From NCBI GenBank assembly GCA_028278105.1, contig JANQEX010000070.1, positions 1-32,340 of the forward strand: a stretch of 32,340 bases of DNA, in the 5' to 3' direction. Each line of letters opens with the position of its first letter. Within the stretch, counting starts at the first letter, position 1. This document shows, piece after piece, positions 1,430 through 32,340 of the stretch. The position numbers and the translations under genes were made by a program. Below the pieces are notes generated by a model. That model worked only from the letters and a program-made list of their open reading frames with translations. It ran no database searches and was not told the DNA's origin. The DNA is from Alphaproteobacteria bacterium. GTDB taxonomy: Bacteria > Pseudomonadota > Alphaproteobacteria > UBA9219 > RGZA01.

Positions 1430-1587
1430 TTCGCTTGCTTTCCGAAGGTTGGATAGTAGACTGCATGCTGCTTGGAACGAGCCCTGCCCGCCGTTGCGGG
1501 CGTCCAGGTTAAGTATCTGCGAATAGCTGCGTTTTCGTGGGCCTCCGCCCGGCGGGGGCGGCAATATTTTTGAACAGGAAACCCCGT

Positions 1588-4329
1588 TTGACCCAGTCCG
1601 ATAACACGGCGCCCGCCAACGATATTCAGCCCGTCTCCATCGAAGAGGAGATGCGCAAATCCTATCTTGATTACGCGATGAGCGTCATCATCAGCCGCGC
1701 GCTGCCCGATGTGCGCGATGGCCTCAAGCCCGTTCACCGCCGCATTCTTTATGCGATGAAAGAGGGCGGCTACGATTCAGCCAAGCCTTACAAAAAATCG
1801 GCGCGCATCGTCGGCGATGTGATGGGTAAATACCACCCGCATGGCGACGCGGCGATTTACGACGCCATGGTGCGCATGGCGCAGGATTTTTCCATGCGCC
1901 TTGCGCTGATCGACGGGCAGGGCAATTTCGGCTCGATGGACGGCGATCCGCCGGCCGCCATGCGCTATACCGAGGCGCGGCTTGCCAAATCGGCCGAAAC
2001 CCTGCTGGAAGACATTGATAAGGATACCGTCGTTTTTCAGCCCAATTACGATGAATCCGCGCGGGAACCGGTGGTCCTTCCCGCCCGCTTTCCCAACCTG
2101 CTCATCAACGGCGCGGGCGGCATCGCGGTGGGCATGGCCACCAATATCCCCCCCCATAACCTGGGCGAGGTGATCGACGCCACGCTGGCCTTGATCGACA
2201 ATCCGGCCCTGGGCGTCGACGATTTGATGGAATTCCTGCCGGGGCCTGATTTTCCGACCGCCGGCATCATCCTTGGCCGCAACGGCATCCGCAGCGCCTT
2301 CCATACCGGACGCGGCTCGGTGGTGATGCGCGCGCGGTCAACCCTTGAGGAAATCCGCAAGGATCGCACGGCGATCATCGTCACCGAGATTCCCTATCAG
2401 GTGAACAAATCGCGCCTGCTGGAAATCATCGCCGCGCAGGTGAACGACAAGGTGATCGAGGGCATCTCCGATTTGCGCGACGAGTCCGACCGTTCCGGTG
2501 TGCGCATCGTGATCGAGCTGCGGCGCGACGCGGTTCCCGATATTGTGCTGAACCAGCTTTACAAGCATACGCCGCTGCAAACCTCTTTCGGCGTCAACAT
2601 GCTGGCGCTGCGCGACGGCAAGCCCGAATTGCTGAACATCAAGCAGGTGCTGGAGTCTTTCCTTGCGTTCCGCGAGCAGGTCATCACCCGCCGCACCGAG
2701 CACGAACTGACCCAGGCCCGCGCCCGCGCCCATATCCTGGTGGGCCTGGCCGTGGCGGTTGCGAATATCGACGCGGTGATAGCCCTGATCCGCAAGGCGC
2801 CCGATCCGGCCGAGGCGCGGGCGCAACTTCTGGCCCGCGAATGGGAAGCCGAAAGCATCCTTCCCATGCTGGAGCTTGTGGAAGGCGAAAACGGCGGCGC
2901 GCCGCGCGCCAAGGCTTATCGTCTGTCGGAGACGCAGGCGAAAGCCATTCTGGACCTGCGCCTGCACCGCCTGACCGGCCTTGAGCGCGAGAAAATCGCG
3001 GCCGACCTGAATGATGTCGTGGCGCGCATTGCCGATTATCTCGATATTCTGCGCAACCGCCCGCGCGTGCTGCAAATCATGCGCGATGAAATGCTGGCCA
3101 TCAAGCAGCAGTTCGGTACGCCGCGCCAGACCATGATCGAGGACATGGAATTCGAGGAAGACATCGAAACCCTGATCCAGCGCGAGGATATGGTGGTCAC
3201 CGTCAGCCATGCGGGCTATGTGAAGCGCGTGCCGCTGTCCACCTACCGCGCGCAGCGGAGAGGCGGCAAGGGCCGCACCGGCATGACCACCAAGGACGAG
3301 GATTTCGTCAACGACATCTTCATCGCCGATACCCACACCCCCATGCTTTTCTTCACCAGCCGGGGCATGGCGTATCAGCTCAAGGTCTACAAGCTGCCGC
3401 TTGGCAATCCGCAGGCGAAAGGCAAGGCGCTGGTGAATCTGCTGCCCTTGCAGCAGGATGAAAAAGTCACCGCCGTCATGCGCATGCCCGAAGACGAGGA
3501 AAGCTGGAAGGATCTCTTCGCCATGTTCGCCACCTCGGCGGGCACGGTGCGCCGCAACCGTCTGTCGGATTTCGGCAGTATCCGCGCCTCCGGCCTCATC
3601 GCCATGAAGCTGGAAGAGGGCGAAAAGCTGATCTCCGTTCATCCTTGCGGCGAGGACATGGACGTTCTGCTCGTCACCCGTCTTGGCAAGGCCATCCGCT
3701 TTCCGGTGGCGGATATCCGGGTCTTCGCCGGCCGCACCTCCATGGGCGTGCGCGGCATCAAGCTTGCCGGCAGCGACGAAGTGATCTCCATGTCGGTCCT
3801 GAAGCATGTGGAAGCCTCGCCGGAAGAGCGCGTGGCCTATCTGCGCGCCGCCGCCCTTCAGCGCCGCGCGGAAGAAGAAGGCGAATCCGCCGCCGACGCG
3901 GGCGAGGAGGAGGATCCCGTGGCCAGCGTCACCCTTTCACCCGAACGCATGGCGGAACTGATCGCCGCCGAGGAGTTCATTCTGACCGTTTCGGCGGAAG
4001 GGCTCGGCAAGCGCAGCTCGTCCTACGAATACCGCATCGCGGGGCGCGGCGGCGCGGGCATCTGGTGCATGAACATGACGGGGCGCAACAGCGCCATCGT
4101 CGCCTCCATGCCGGTTGTGGAAAACCAGGACCTGATGCTGGTCACCAATGGCGGGCAGATCATCCGCATGCCGCTGGGGGATATCCGCATCGCGGGCCGC
4201 GCGACGCAAGGCGTCACCCTGTTCCGCATCGGCGAGGACGAGCGGGTTGTCTCGGCCGCCCTCATTCAGGAGGACGGGGCCGAAGATGCGGAAACCGGCG
4301 AAGAGACCGGCGAAACGGTGGCGGAGTAG
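1588..4329 (+). CDS. gyrA: DNA gyrase subunit A
   Basis: This is the breakage-reunion subunit of DNA gyrase, which with GyrB introduces negative supercoils. I place the start at the TTG at 1588 because AGGAA lies 7 bases upstream and the predicted N-terminus then leads directly into the conserved [16 protein letters not shown] segment. An in-frame GTG at 1537 would add residues that do not look like GyrA. The product is 913 residues. The catalytic tyrosine is Y127 in [10 protein letters not shown], and the GyrA-box QRRGGKG lies near residue 555, which marks a gyrase rather than topoisomerase IV. The C-terminal beta-pinwheel repeats follow, with an acidic Glu-rich insertion around residues 755-775. 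The quinolone-determining region reads [10 protein letters not shown], with alanine where E. coli has serine 83. Confidence 0.97.
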
Positions 4330-4398
4330 GCCGTTGTCATGTAAATTCCGCCGGGTATGCGGTAAGCCGGAAATGCGTCAAATATTTCCCCTTTCCTT

Positions 4399-4504
4399 GC
4401 CCGGCTTCGCCTTCGGCTACGCCGAGGTCCTTGGAGCAAGCTCGTCCGCCGAAGCTCGCCGAGCGGAGGCGGAAGGGAGGGGATTAAGGGGTGGGGTTGA
4501 TGGT
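4399..4504 (+). repeat. Left inverted repeat flanking the DUF559 gene
   Basis: This is a copy of the GC-rich dispersed repeat, running from CCCGGCTTCGCC through GTCCGCCGAAGCTCG to GGAGGCGGAAGGGAGGGG. From about 4430 it is nearly identical, in opposite orientation, to 5011-5085 on the far side of the DUF559 gene. Its last 30 bases (4475-4504) recur exactly at 4621-4650, where they supply the start codon of that gene. Confidence 0.85.
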
Positions 4505-4530
4505 TGTCATCAGAAGAACCCCTCACCAGC

Positions 4531-4574
4531 AAGAACCAAGGGTTTAGCCGCTTCGCGCCTAAACCCAGGTTCTT
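4531..4574. repeat. Hairpin between gyrA and the DUF559 gene
   Basis: AAGAACC then GGGTTTAG pairs with CTAAACCC then GGTTCTT around an 11-base loop, giving about 15 base pairs with one small bulge. No T-run follows, so it is not a classical intrinsic terminator, although it could still end or stabilise gyrA transcripts. A second, shorter palindrome (CTCCCTCAAGGGGAG) follows at about 4580. Confidence 0.6.
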
Positions 4575-4645
4575 GCAACCTCTCCCTCAAGGGGAGAGGA
4601 AGAATCTCCCCTCCCCTTGAGGGAGGGGATTAAGGGGTGGGGTTG

Positions 4646-5122
4646 ATGGTAACTAAAAGAGCCAGCCGCAAATATCCGGTCACCATGCCGGCTTTGGCAA
4701 AGAAGCTTCGCAAGGATGCAATCCCTGCCGAACGAAAACTCTGGTTCTTGTTTCAGCAGTTAAGGTTATCAGAAGGCATAAGATTCCGTCGGCAACAGCC
4801 TGTCGGTCCGTTTATCGCCGATTTCTATTGCGCGGCACAAAAGCTGATTGTTGAAATAGATGGTTTTTCTCACGAAAGCAGGGAACCGGAGGATCATGAA
4901 CGTGATTTGTTTGTAAATGCCTTGGGAATCCGCGTTTTACGCTTTACCGAGAAGGAGGCTGGTGAGAATCCTGAACAGGTTGTGGAAACGATTCTCGAAT
5001 TTCTGCGCTCCACCCCACCCCTAACCCCTCCCTTCCGCCTCCGCTCTGCGAGCTTCGGCGGACAAGCTTTCTCCAAGGACCCGCCGAAGCCTTGGCGAAG
5101 GCGGGCAAGGGGAGGGGGATAG
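4646..5122 (+). CDS. DUF559-family endonuclease-like protein, repeat-flanked
   Basis: The 158-residue product resembles the DUF559 family, which has the restriction-endonuclease-like fold related to very-short-patch-repair (Vsr) nucleases. Recognisable features are LRKDAIPAERKLW near the start, FRRQQPVGPFIADFYC, the acidic LIVEIDGFSH strand that would carry the metal-binding aspartate, and GIRVLRF. I use the ATG at 4646; a GTG at 4637 is also in frame. The start codon lies inside a 30-base direct repeat (4621-4650, copy at 4475-4504). Roughly the last 36 residues, rich in Pro, Arg and Gly, are translated from an inverted repeat copy and are unlikely to be part of the fold. Activity and target are unknown. 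It ends 10 bases before coaD. Confidence 0.75.
   Translation: MVTKRASRKYPVTMPALAKKLRKDAIPAERKLWFLFQQLRLSEGIRFRRQQPVGPFIADFYCAAQKLIVEIDGFSHESREPEDHERDLFVNALGIRVLRFTEKEAGENPEQVVETILEFLRSTPPLTPPFRLRSASFGGQAFSKDPPKPWRRRARGGG
5011..5120 (-). repeat. Right inverted repeat, overlapping the end of the DUF559 gene
   Basis: Read on the minus strand this matches the left flank at 4430-4500: GTCCTTGGAG, GTCCGCCGAAGCTCG, GGAGGCGGAAGGGAGGGG and GGGGTGGGG occur in the same order. Within it, GCTTCGGCGG at about 5051 and CCGCCGAAGC at about 5081 form a perfect 10-base-pair stem. The copy lies within the reading frame of the DUF559 gene and reaches almost to coaD. Confidence 0.85.
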
Positions 5123-5132
5123 TAATTTTCCA

Positions 5133-5684
5133 ATGTCCCCGAAAAAATCCCGCTCTTCAAATATATCCGGCATTCTCACCGGCCTTTATCCGGGCACGTT
5201 CGATCCGGTCACGCTGGGGCATGTCGATATCATCATGCGCGCGACCAAGGTGGTGAACCGCCTGGTGGTGGGTGTGGCCGAAAATGCGGGGAAGGGGCCG
5301 CTCTTCAGCCTGAAAGAGCGGCTTGTCCTGGTGGAGGAGGCCGCGCGCGGGGCCGATACCAATGGCGCCGAGGTTATCGTGATGCCGTTCAAAACCTTGC
5401 TGGTGGATTTTGCGCGGCAGGTGAATGCGCGGGTGATCGTGCGCGGCCTGCGCGCCGTTTCCGACTTTGAATACGAATTCCAGATGGCGGCCATGAACCG
5501 CAAGCTCAGTCCCATCGAGACGGTGTTTCTTATGTCCTCCGACCGTTATCAGTTCATTTCCTCGCGCTTCGTGAAGGAAATCGCGCTGCTGGGCGGCGAT
5601 GTGTCCCCTTTCGTCAGTCCGCGCGTGCTAGGGGAAATCGCCCGTAAACTGGGACGAAAAGGCAAGAGGAAGCGCGTCCGGTAG
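5133..5684 (+). CDS. coaD: Phosphopantetheine adenylyltransferase
   Basis: CoaD transfers AMP from ATP to 4'-phosphopantetheine, the penultimate step of coenzyme A synthesis, in the cytosol. The nucleotidyltransferase signature YPGTFDPVTLGH appears near residues 19-30, with VRGLRAVSDFEYE in the middle and ISSRFVKEIALLGGD near the end as the second ATP-binding segment. The 183-residue product is slightly long because of a basic, Ser-rich 14-residue N-terminal lead and a basic tail (RKGKRKRVR). I see no strong ribosome binding site for the ATG at 5133, because the repeat at 5011-5120 ends just upstream. A later start close to the first strand cannot be ruled out. Confidence 0.95.
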   Translation: MSPKKSRSSNISGILTGLYPGTFDPVTLGHVDIIMRATKVVNRLVVGVAENAGKGPLFSLKERLVLVEEAARGADTNGAEVIVMPFKTLLVDFARQVNARVIVRGLRAVSDFEYEFQMAAMNRKLSPIETVFLMSSDRYQFISSRFVKEIALLGGDVSPFVSPRVLGEIARKLGRKGKRKRVR

Positions 5685-7612: not shown

Positions 7613-7629
7613 GCCGTGTTCCGCAGCCG

Positions 7630-7940
7630 GTTTTCAGGTAAGGCGTCATCCTGAAAAAGCGGGCGGCGCGAGCTTTATTCAGGATCTCTTTAACCGGAGA
7701 GAGATCCTGGATAACCGCCTGCGGCGGTTTCCAGGATGACGCTTGTAGCAAAAATCAGAGGTCAGAAATCAGAGGCCGGTTTTGAGGAATCAGTGTCTTA
7801 TGATACGTCAGCTTGGTGTCCCATAATGCGTCATCCTGAAAAAGCGAGCGAAGCGAGCTTTATTCAGGATATCTCTCCCGTTAAAGAGATCCTAGATAAC
7901 CGCCCGCGGCGGTTTCCAGGATGACGCTTTACCTGAAAAC
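7630..7940. repeat. Compound inverted-repeat element between convergent genes
   Basis: Two similar 100-base palindromes (7643-7742 and 7828-7927) start with GCGTCATCCTGAAAAAGCG, contain AGCTTTATTCAGGAT, and end with GGTTTCCAGGATGACGC. The outermost bases also match as an inverted pair: GTTTTCAGGTAAGGCGTC at the left and its near complement at the right end. The unit therefore looks like two palindromes enclosed in terminal inverted repeats. It fills almost all the gap between the ABC exporter gene and the phosphatase-like gene, whose stop codon is 3 bases away. It may end transcription from both sides. Confidence 0.85.
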
Positions 7941-10533: not shown

Positions 10534-10612
10534 ACATTCCGGGCAAGGCTGCGAAGCAGCCGCGACCCGGAATCCCATTTTAAACAAATGGGATTCCCGC
10601 CTTCGCGGGAAT
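10534..10612. repeat. Palindromic repeat (CATTCCGGG type)
   Basis: CATTCCGGGCAAGG leads into GCGACCCGGAATCCCATTT, then CAAATGGGATTCCC and CGCGGGAATG, so it folds into nested stems. Partial copies lie at 31808-31852 and at the window's right end (about 32256-32340). It lies between the NDUFS4-like gene and tRNA-Arg. Confidence 0.8.
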
Positions 10613-10672
10613 GTGCATGATGTAATTTGCCGATAACCAAATAACCGAGTCCTGATGACGGTTTACTGAATT

Positions 10673-22216: not shown

Positions 22217-22603
22217 CGGCTTGTTTCGGACCGGACAAAATTCCCCTCCCTTTGGGAGGGGTTAGGGGAGGGAAAACAGGAAAAGGGAAGGGAAAATCGG
22301 TGGTGTTTTACTTTGAAAATCACCCCCGCGGAGGCGGGGGTCCCATTTGATTAAAAACAATGGGATGCCCGCCTTCGCGGGCATGATATTTTTCAAACTG
22401 AGACACTACCGGAAAACCGGAAAAGTTCAGGAAAATGTAAGCTCTCCTTCCTGCAAACCCTTTCCCATTCCCCTCCCTTTGGGAGGGGTTAGGGGAGGGA
22501 AAGGTAAAAACCAGGGAAACAACCCTCCCCCTTCCCCCTCCCAAAGGGAGGGGGATATTCATGTTTGCCTCGCCGGTCGTTCTTCGATTTGTATCAGGTG
22601 TAG
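22217..22603. repeat. Repeat cluster between accB and accC
   Basis: Three copies of a CCCTCCCTTTGGGAGGG palindrome with a GGTTAGGGGAGGG tail lie at 22243-22273 and 22470-22500 (direct) and 22523-22555 (inverted). Between them, about 22322-22385, a different palindrome runs from CCCCCGCGGAGGCGGGGG through CCCATTTG and CAATGGG to CCCGCCTTCGCGGGCATG. I see no gene or clear promoter. The fourth copy of the first family is at 29834-29864. Confidence 0.85.
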
Positions 22604-27571: not shown

Positions 27572-27774
27572 AAATAATACAAAAATCTTATAAAATGACT
27601 CATCGAAAGCACAGACCGTCACCCCTGCACCCGCTTTCGCGGGGACAGGCTCCGGCGGGGGGCCACGCTTATATTCTTTTAATTTGTATGGATTTCAAGC
27701 GTGGATGCCCGCCTTCGCGGGCATGACAAATCTCCTATGGGATGGATCAGTTTATAAGACCGTTGGTATAATTT
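27572..27774. mobile_element. MITE-like element with terminal inverted repeats
   Basis: The two ends are inverted matches over about 32 bases: left AAATAATAC...CTTATAAAATGACTCAT, right (complement) AAATTATACCAACGGTC then TTATAAACTGATCCAT. Inside is a large palindrome in which CCACGCTT and AAGCGTGG enclose an AT-rich centre, flanked by Gly/Cys-type GC arms (CCGCTTTCGCGGGG and CCCGCCTTCGCGGGCATGAC). It has no gene, so it would need a transposase in trans. It lies between the antitoxin promoter and a GC-rich repeat. Confidence 0.7.
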
Positions 27775-29473: not shown

Positions 29474-29652
29474 TATACCTACGGTCTTATGAAATGACTC
29501 ATCCCAAAAGCACGGACCGTCACCCCCGCGAAGGCGGGGGTCCACGCTTATAATCTTTTGATTTGTTTGAATATCAAGCGTGGATGCCCGCCTCCGCGGG
29601 CATGACAGGTTACCTTAGTTGACATGTGTCAGTTCATAAGTTTGTTAGTATT
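29474..29652. mobile_element. MITE-like element with terminal inverted repeats, second copy
   Basis: Left end TATACCTACGG then CTTATGAAATGACTCAT; the right end reads, as complement, AATACTAACAAACTTATG then AACTGACACAT. Both ends enclose a palindromic body with CCACGCTT...AAGCGTGG as in the element at 27572-27774. There is no reading frame worth calling. Confidence 0.7.
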
Positions 29653-30347
29653 ACATGGCATTTATGCTGCAACTGCTCAATGGCGCGGACATCAGGCCCA
29701 CGCATAAAAGGGATTTCGTTATCCTGTCCTGGGGGGCCGGATTCAATAAGGCCCGCCCTTGCGAGGCCCGAAAAACCAACTTGCCCGCCGTGGCTCTGGT
29801 GGAGGCGGAAGGGAGGGGGGAGGTGATTTTTATTCCCCTCCCTTTGGGAGGGGTTAGGGGAGGGTGCATGCGCATGTTTCATGGGCCATGCTTCTTCTTA
29901 TGGAAAGGTCTTCCCTCCCCCTTGTCCCTCTCCGCCTTCGCTCTGCGGGCTTCGGCGGACAAACTTCCTTATAAGGACCCGCCGTAGCTTTGGCGAAGGT
30001 GGGCCAGAGGGAGGGGAGATGTGACTTTCACTCCCCTCCCGCTTGTCCGCTTCCGCAAAGCTTCGGCGCGGCGGGTGCGTCAAGATTTCGGTGCAGCCGG
30101 GCGTAAGGGTGACAACTGGTACAGGCCGGGGGTTATTTCATAAGACTGTTGGTATAAGTCTTCATCAGGATCGCCAAGGTTATGCTGGCGTTCTCGTGCC
30201 TTGAGATGGATCGCCGCGCGCCGTTTCACGGCGCTCGCGATGACGGTTATCCTTTTGGCAGGATGTATTTTAATGGGGTGCAAACCCTTGGGCACAAGCG
30301 CAAAACAGACATTTTATGGTTAACCGATTATGAAAGTTTTGTTGGTG
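29653..30347. repeat. Gene-free repeat-rich region
   Basis: No convincing gene. Repeats are a CCCTCCCTTTGGGAGGG copy at 29834-29864, a GC-rich dispersed repeat at about 29905-30018 (CTTCGGCGGACAAAC, AAGGACCCGCCGTAGC), a shorter copy at about 30036-30105, and an isolated end of the MITE-like family at about 30109-30155 (TTTCATAAGACTGTTGG). Frames crossing them code for repeat-like peptides. The stretch 30156-30347 is more AT-rich and I see nothing in it. Confidence 0.65.
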
Positions 30348-31780: not shown

Positions 31781-32340
31781 GTCGGGGGGGGGGTGATCTC
31801 TTGATGAACATTCCGGGCAAGGGTGCGCGGCAACCGCGACCCGGAATCCAGTTTGTTGTTGAAAATAATACCAACGAACTTATGAACTGACATACGCCAA
31901 TAAGGTAACTCGTCATGCCCGCGACGGCGGGCATCCACGCTTGAAATACAAAGATTATAAGCGTGGCCACCCCCCGGAGCCTGTCCCCACGAAAGCAGGG
32001 GGCCGCATTTTAAAACTTTTGTTTTGATAGTCTTTTAGCGTGGATGCCCGCCGGAGCCTTGGCGCAGGCGGGCAAGGGGAGGGGAAATTTATCCATCAAG
32101 GACCCCGCCGTAGCTTTGGCGAAGGCGGGTCGGAGGGAGGGGACAAGGTGACTTTTATTTCTTTCCCTCTGGCCGCCTCCGCAGGCTTCGGCGTGGCAAA
32201 TAGGAAAAACCTCGGCATAGCCTTAGGTTCAATGGACAATGACCAACACGAACATTCCCGCCCCCGCCTGCGCGGGGGCAGGCTCCAGCGGGAATCCCAT
32301 TTTATTCTTCGAACAGAAAACAAATGGAATTCCGGGTCGC
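31781..32340. repeat. Gene-free terminal repeat region
   Basis: No gene seen. In order: a CATTCCGGG palindrome fragment (31808-31852), a left end of the MITE-like family from about 31866 (ATACCAACGAACTTATG) with part of its palindromic body, GC-rich dispersed repeats (about 32044-32216), the 34-base element shared with 62-95 (32224-32257), and the start of another CATTCCGGG-type copy running off the window. Confidence 0.7.

Follow-up and report, generated by a model that had tools for sequence, protein, structure and literature searches.

Genes of the DUF559 nuclease family show a strong physical association with PIT/BoxC repeats. Since these genes lie nearly always beside or between inverted copies of the repeat, it is suggested that the nuclease spreads the repeat. 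Gene and repeats are read here as a two-part element in which the nuclease recognises, cuts, and copies PIT-bounded DNA, a reading to which we assign a probability of roughly 0.6; the recognition, cutting, and mobilisation that it ascribes to the nuclease are inferred.

The DUF559 locus between gyrA and coaD

The window, that is, the whole analysed stretch of 32,340 nucleotides, belongs to an alphaproteobacterial genome of 2.05 Mb, which has a single DUF559 gene. It is the one DUF559 ORF in the gap between gyrA and coaD, and all three genes point in the same direction (Table 1). The gene is enclosed by inverted arms of 57 nt with 95% identity (4426–4482 and 5025–5081), and the wider arms (4388–4497 versus 5012–5117) reach a score of 69.5, with none of 57 random placements within the window exceeding 18.5. 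The bracketing by inverted copies that had been described in a sequence-only reading of this DNA is thereby borne out, and so are two details given with it. A 31-nt word occurs twice to the left of the gene with 100% identity (4474–4504 and 4620–4650), the second copy containing the start codon, and the ORF from 5012 to its stop at 5120 is the right repeat copy. The same reading had assumed one left repeat, duplicated in part. The duplication holds; the single repeat does not, since the left flank consists of three units (4388–4497, 4517–4599, and 4608–4642), including an inverted one of a second subtype. The first two of these make up a complete gene-free inverted pair.

Table 1. Features of the gyrA–coaD region, in window coordinates.
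Feature	Position	Strand	Remarks
gyrA, left neighbour	1537..4329	+	Same direction as the DUF559 ORF and coaD
Outer left PIT/BoxC-type repeat	4388..4497	+	Long GC hairpin CCCCTTTCC...GGAAGGGAGGGG; tail ATTAAGGGGTGGGG directed at the gene
PIT of second subtype, opposite orientation	4517..4599	-	Tail CCCCTCACC, stem-loop linker, hairpin CCTCTCCC/GGGGAGAGG
Gene-proximal left PIT	4608..4642	+	CCCCTCCC-cttga-GGGAGGGG-attaa-GGGGTGGGG; repeat copy runs on through the start codon
DUF559 (PF04480) nuclease ORF	4646..5122	+	ATG start at 4646; GTG alternative at 4637
Conserved DUF559 domain	4691..5005	+	Within the nuclease ORF
Right PIT, inverted	5012..5117	-	Tail CCACCCCACCCC directed at the gene; supplies the final ~36 residues of the protein
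coaD, right neighbour	5133..5684	+	gyrA–coaD synteny conserved in the order

Taken alone, the long left repeat has an unexceptional DNA folding energy (z 0.16); the other units range from z -2.0 to -9.3, the latter value belonging to unit 4517–4599. Across the genome, the left repeat has 58 matches, many of them arranged as inverted pairs. Further gene-free CCCTCCC...GGGAGGG hairpins of the general PIT type, some in inverted pairs, are present in the window at 22237–22559 and 29831–29867. Another dispersed repeat with the core GGATGCCCGCCTTCGCGGGCATGA, whose design is unlike that of PIT, occurs at 27654–27728, 29533–29607, 31901–31999, 10578–10614, and 22350–22386. A direct repeat of 121 nt that has TTATTCAGGAT...ATCCTGGATAA as inverted arms follows the ABC transporter gene (7624–7929).

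Architecture of the repeat and of the nuclease

Every repeat unit is built from a pyrimidine arm, the purine arm complementary to it, and a tail rich in G. In 211 hairpins adjoining DUF559 genes, the mirrored purine arm of the same unit agrees with the tail at 0.91, compared with 0.79 for a shuffled arm, with A being read as A or T in this scoring; for the 179 asymmetric arms, the mirror match (0.91) exceeds the direct match (0.84). An A in the purine arm is faced by A or T in the tail and hardly ever by G or C. Because the tail mirrors the purine arm and A is met by A or T, this covariation corresponds to the purine-motif triplex rule. Judged by its sequence, the window repeat is a BoxC/PIT/TM intrastrand-triplex element, the formation of the triplex itself being inferred. 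First described in the 1990s, such elements occur widely; a survey that reports them in >260 bacterial genomes ties them to genome instability and names no mobiliser (PMC4666352). The text of that survey contains no match to "nuclease" or "DUF", and a partner gene of the repeat is not named. The repeats described there share with the present ones the pyrimidine arm, the purine arm, and the mirrored G-rich tail, and inverted pairs are listed there as well. What sets the present repeats apart is that they bracket DUF559 genes; in addition, many of the copies from Alphaproteobacteria contain longer hairpins or a linker with a stem-loop. The E. coli consensus CCCTCNCCCN3-6GGGNGAGGGN3GGGNGAGGG (Holder et al. 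2015, PMC4666352) has an exact match beside ycjD. In E. coli K-12, the C terminus of YcjD reads ...RRSPSP; the stop lies within one half of a BoxC, and a complete BoxC follows downstream. In 3,362 of 5,426 E. coli genomes, a single place accounts for at least 80% of the ycjD region.

The window ORF matches profile PF04480 with an E-value of 1.7e-31 over positions 5–108 of 109. Residues D59, E70, D72, and H76 are among those invariant in 51 sequences, and the predicted active-site residues (D, E-x-D-G-x-x-H) are intact in the window protein. In the structure model, the nuclease domain lies mostly at pLDDT 89–98 and both ends are of low confidence, the C-terminal one being the repeat-derived end. 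The best fold matches in the PDB are 3HRL, which corresponds to the window protein by sequence as well, and then the homing endonuclease I-Bth0305I, with Vsr ranking lower. According to this model, the protein is predicted to have the Vsr/PD-(D/E)XK fold.

Association across genomes

A single-protein scan of the genome contigs returned only two distant relatives, and a broader genome search was used instead. One check suggested in the sequence-only reading was whether the repeats flank DUF559 genes more often than by chance; they do so far more often in the order, in the class, and in the rest of the phylum, with examples in other phyla. With a triplex-motif finder that tolerates mismatches, and does so equally in the controls, a PIT-like unit was found on at least one side of 148 of 149 Pseudomonadota DUF559 genes (controls 7%). 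Units on both sides were present in 111 of the 149 genes, compared with 16 of 6,874 random placements, and both had their tails inward in 100 genes and in 4 placements, respectively. Other ORFs at the same loci were bracketed on both sides in 3 of 860 cases, and ORFs under 600 nt in none of 271. In about a quarter of the DUF559 genes, just one side has repeats, and the orientation of the repeats varies. In an assumption-free test, the two 350-bp flanks of the domain were compared for their best inverted repeat, which lay above 99% of control placements in 27 of 33 loci of the order, 29 of 40 of the class, and 24 of 40 of the rest of the phylum. Herein, DUF559 loci were drawn from the best-scoring matches, incomplete MAGs add noise, and p-values overstate independence because the loci are related by descent.

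PIT units flank DUF559 in 4/4 cases from Deinococcus and in most cases on cyanobacterial plasmids, with Picosynechococcus PCC 7002 as an exception; they also lie beside DUF559 in Gracilibacteria and in one Oscillospiraceae genome. Among Pseudomonadota records that bear a name, the DUF559 gene of Neisseria gonorrhoeae lies between repeat copies in direct orientation, and a DUF559 copy on a P. aeruginosa plasmid has no flanking PIT units. Among phage-labelled matches, two have PIT-like flanks and Tunturi_2 has none, which are too few for a conclusion. As to gene surroundings, cyanobacterial plasmid DUF559 genes occur beside or near BREX genes (loci L346 and L348), the domain lying within a very large ORF in L348, and those on Picosynechococcus plasmids (L344 and L358) stand between DUF499 and DUF1156 genes, possibly in a defence-type island. 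At one further locus (L339:4349–5030, gene-oriented), the right repeat composite by the DUF559 gene is present as three tandem, near-identical units of ~220 bp.

The two repeats around each paralog are matched to each other. For 77 genes from multi-paralog genomes, similarity between a gene's own left and right repeats exceeds that across paralogs (median 29.5 versus 14.75, p 2e-12). The more similar two nucleases are, the more similar their repeats tend to be, both over the full set of loci (Mantel rho 0.275, p 0.001) and inside 14 genomes (p 0.0002, with the near-identical pair of genome G687 included). Gene and repeat co-occur at the level of genomes, too. In the order, the median hairpin count is 24.5 in genomes that have DUF559 and 0 in those that do not (p 0.0007), and in the class (385 genomes) 10 or more PIT-type hairpins are found in 69 of 94 with DUF559 versus 14 of 291 without (odds ratio 55). 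In the 19 genera holding both kinds of genome, 12 hairpin contrasts favour the DUF559 genomes and 4 oppose (Wilcoxon p 0.003). Repeats are present without a DUF559 gene having been found in G001 (89% complete), in G027, and in 14 genomes of the class.

Gain, loss, and copying, and their bearing on the proposed element

The synteny of gyrA and coaD is kept in the order, and no DUF559 gene lies there in any other genome where the gap could be read, several of these gaps being short. The case that was named as refuting a joint unit is missing: no relative has the gene at this site without repeats, and the window genome has no other DUF559 copy. In G003 and G004, the site contains neither gene nor repeats, and G001, of the same genus, has a lone repeat relic before coaD. 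Between sufB and sufC, the module is found in six genomes, which split between two clades of the nuclease tree, and in the congeners G029 and G027 the gap measures 13 and 24 nt, respectively, gene and repeat both being absent. From this pattern and the two clades it follows that gene and repeats are either both there or both missing, with positions being inherited as well. In G019 (L097), ~70 bp of the 5' end of sufC, diverged, are found on both sides of the DUF559 module.

One recent copy event is seen in G687, where two copies are 97% identical over the gene and the right composite and the identity stops at a hairpin; paralog similarity in other genomes likewise stops near the repeats. Most of the DUF559 copies that share a genome are old and diverged, and some of their positions are common to relatives, which suggests that movement is rare. 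Recent gene multiplication within genomes was rejected, as the G687 pair is the only near-identical one. The element has a median length of 492 bp (typically 0.45–0.56 kb), and a search for a target-site duplication found no word common to its outer ends above shuffled pairs.

The proposed unit would be composed of a PIT, the DUF559 gene, and an inverted PIT over ~0.5 kb, most often with both tails inward, and gene-free inverted PIT pairs with a short spacer would be its non-autonomous relatives. The nuclease may recognise the folded element, be it as hairpin, triplex, or cruciform, and cut at or near the folded PIT. Repair of the cut would then copy PIT-bounded DNA into new intergenic sites at a low rate. 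The earlier inference that nuclease and repeat form one unit, with a logic like that of RAYTs or homing endonucleases, is supported by the analysis, whereas cutting and movement of the repeat by the protein remain unproven.

An unlikely, though not negligible, explanation is that DUF559 is a parasitic homing gene that inserts into the spacer of an existing inverted PIT pair because this pair is its cleavage target, the repeats being spread otherwise. The closest characterised fold is indeed that of the homing endonuclease I-Bth0305I, and close inverted pairs without a gene do exist in the background, with tails-inward as the commonest arrangement (19 of 38). Empty target alleles exist as well, but without the repeat (cleavage being inferred only): the orthologous sites between sufB and sufC in G029 and G027 and between gyrA and coaD in G003 and G004 lack it, and repeats are rare in genomes without DUF559. 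We give even less credit to a maintenance enzyme that, in a Vsr-like manner, resolves or repairs triplex- or hairpin-induced damage, so that PIT-rich genomes retain the gene, while the flanking PITs regulate it. The family is Vsr-like, PITs block polymerase in vitro (reviewed in PMC4666352), and the co-occurrence of gene and hairpins across genomes would fit; the inverted bracketing with paralog-specific matched pairs and the loss or gain of the whole module are nevertheless left unexplained. Such a role is still possible because of VsrA of Caulobacter, a characterised DUF559 protein tied to cytosine methylation and SOS (PMC12907096), and a methylation/SOS function could be the real role of DUF559. 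That a RAYT or other transposase mobilises the repeats with DUF559 as a bystander is very improbable: RAYTs move REPINs in other bacteria (PMC8049555), but a Y1_Tnp gene is absent from the window genome (G000) and from G018 and G028, the genomes of the order with the most repeats, and four Y1_Tnp loci, few as they are, lack such repeats. A RAYT as mobiliser was rejected, given that the window genome has none. Finally, chance crowding of repeats around an old gene, an alternative raised in the sequence-only reading and in keeping with the abundance of repeats in the window genome, can practically be dismissed given the control on other ORFs and the matched left and right repeats of each paralog.

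Among known systems, REPIN-RAYT is similar to the proposed two-part element in combining dispersed hairpins in inverted pairs with a repeat-flanked enzyme gene that is diverged, present in few copies, and mostly inherited vertically; the RAYT enzyme is likewise single-copy and vertically kept (PMC8049555). The two differ in the enzyme, which is PD-(D/E)XK (Vsr-like) for DUF559 and HUH/Y1 for RAYT, and in the repeat, as PIT has a triplex tail and REP a GTAG-type foot. PF01797 (Y1/HUH transposase) is absent from the window genome, where the partner of the repeat is PF04480; hence, DUF559-PIT is not a member of REPIN-RAYT. By analogy, the best reading is that it would work like REPIN-RAYT with a Vsr/homing-endonuclease-like enzyme. 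The Vsr-like I-Bth0305I (PDB 3R3P) provides the closest fold of known function, but DUF559 genes lie outside introns, inteins, and conserved genes and are flanked by their own inverted repeats. YcjD, NGO0050 (PDB 3HRL), and Caulobacter VsrA belong to the same Pfam family as the window protein, yet the literature found describes no repeat link for them, VsrA being framed by methylation and SOS. An insertion sequence or MITE with a DDE transposase was rejected, as there is no target-site duplication and the element holds the nuclease ORF only. No earlier statement of a link between DUF559 and BoxC/PIT was found in the open-access literature, with most subscription papers and preprints not being covered.

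The main survey of BoxC/PIT (PMC4666352) names no gene that makes or spreads the repeat, and the DUF559 link offers a candidate. For DUF559, a large family of nucleases to which few functions have been assigned, it yields a testable hypothesis, and it accounts for the tails that many annotated DUF559 proteins derive from the repeat. Tentatively, and with the odds somewhat against it, a new class of bacterial mobile unit may be envisaged, occurring in organisms as far apart as E. coli, Deinococcus, and cyanobacteria: a nuclease of ~110 residues would recognise an intrastrand triplex in DNA, spread the DNA bounded by it without transposase or target duplication, and be responsible for BoxC/PIT. 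If true, this would add a structure-directed, non-transposase route of repeat spread.
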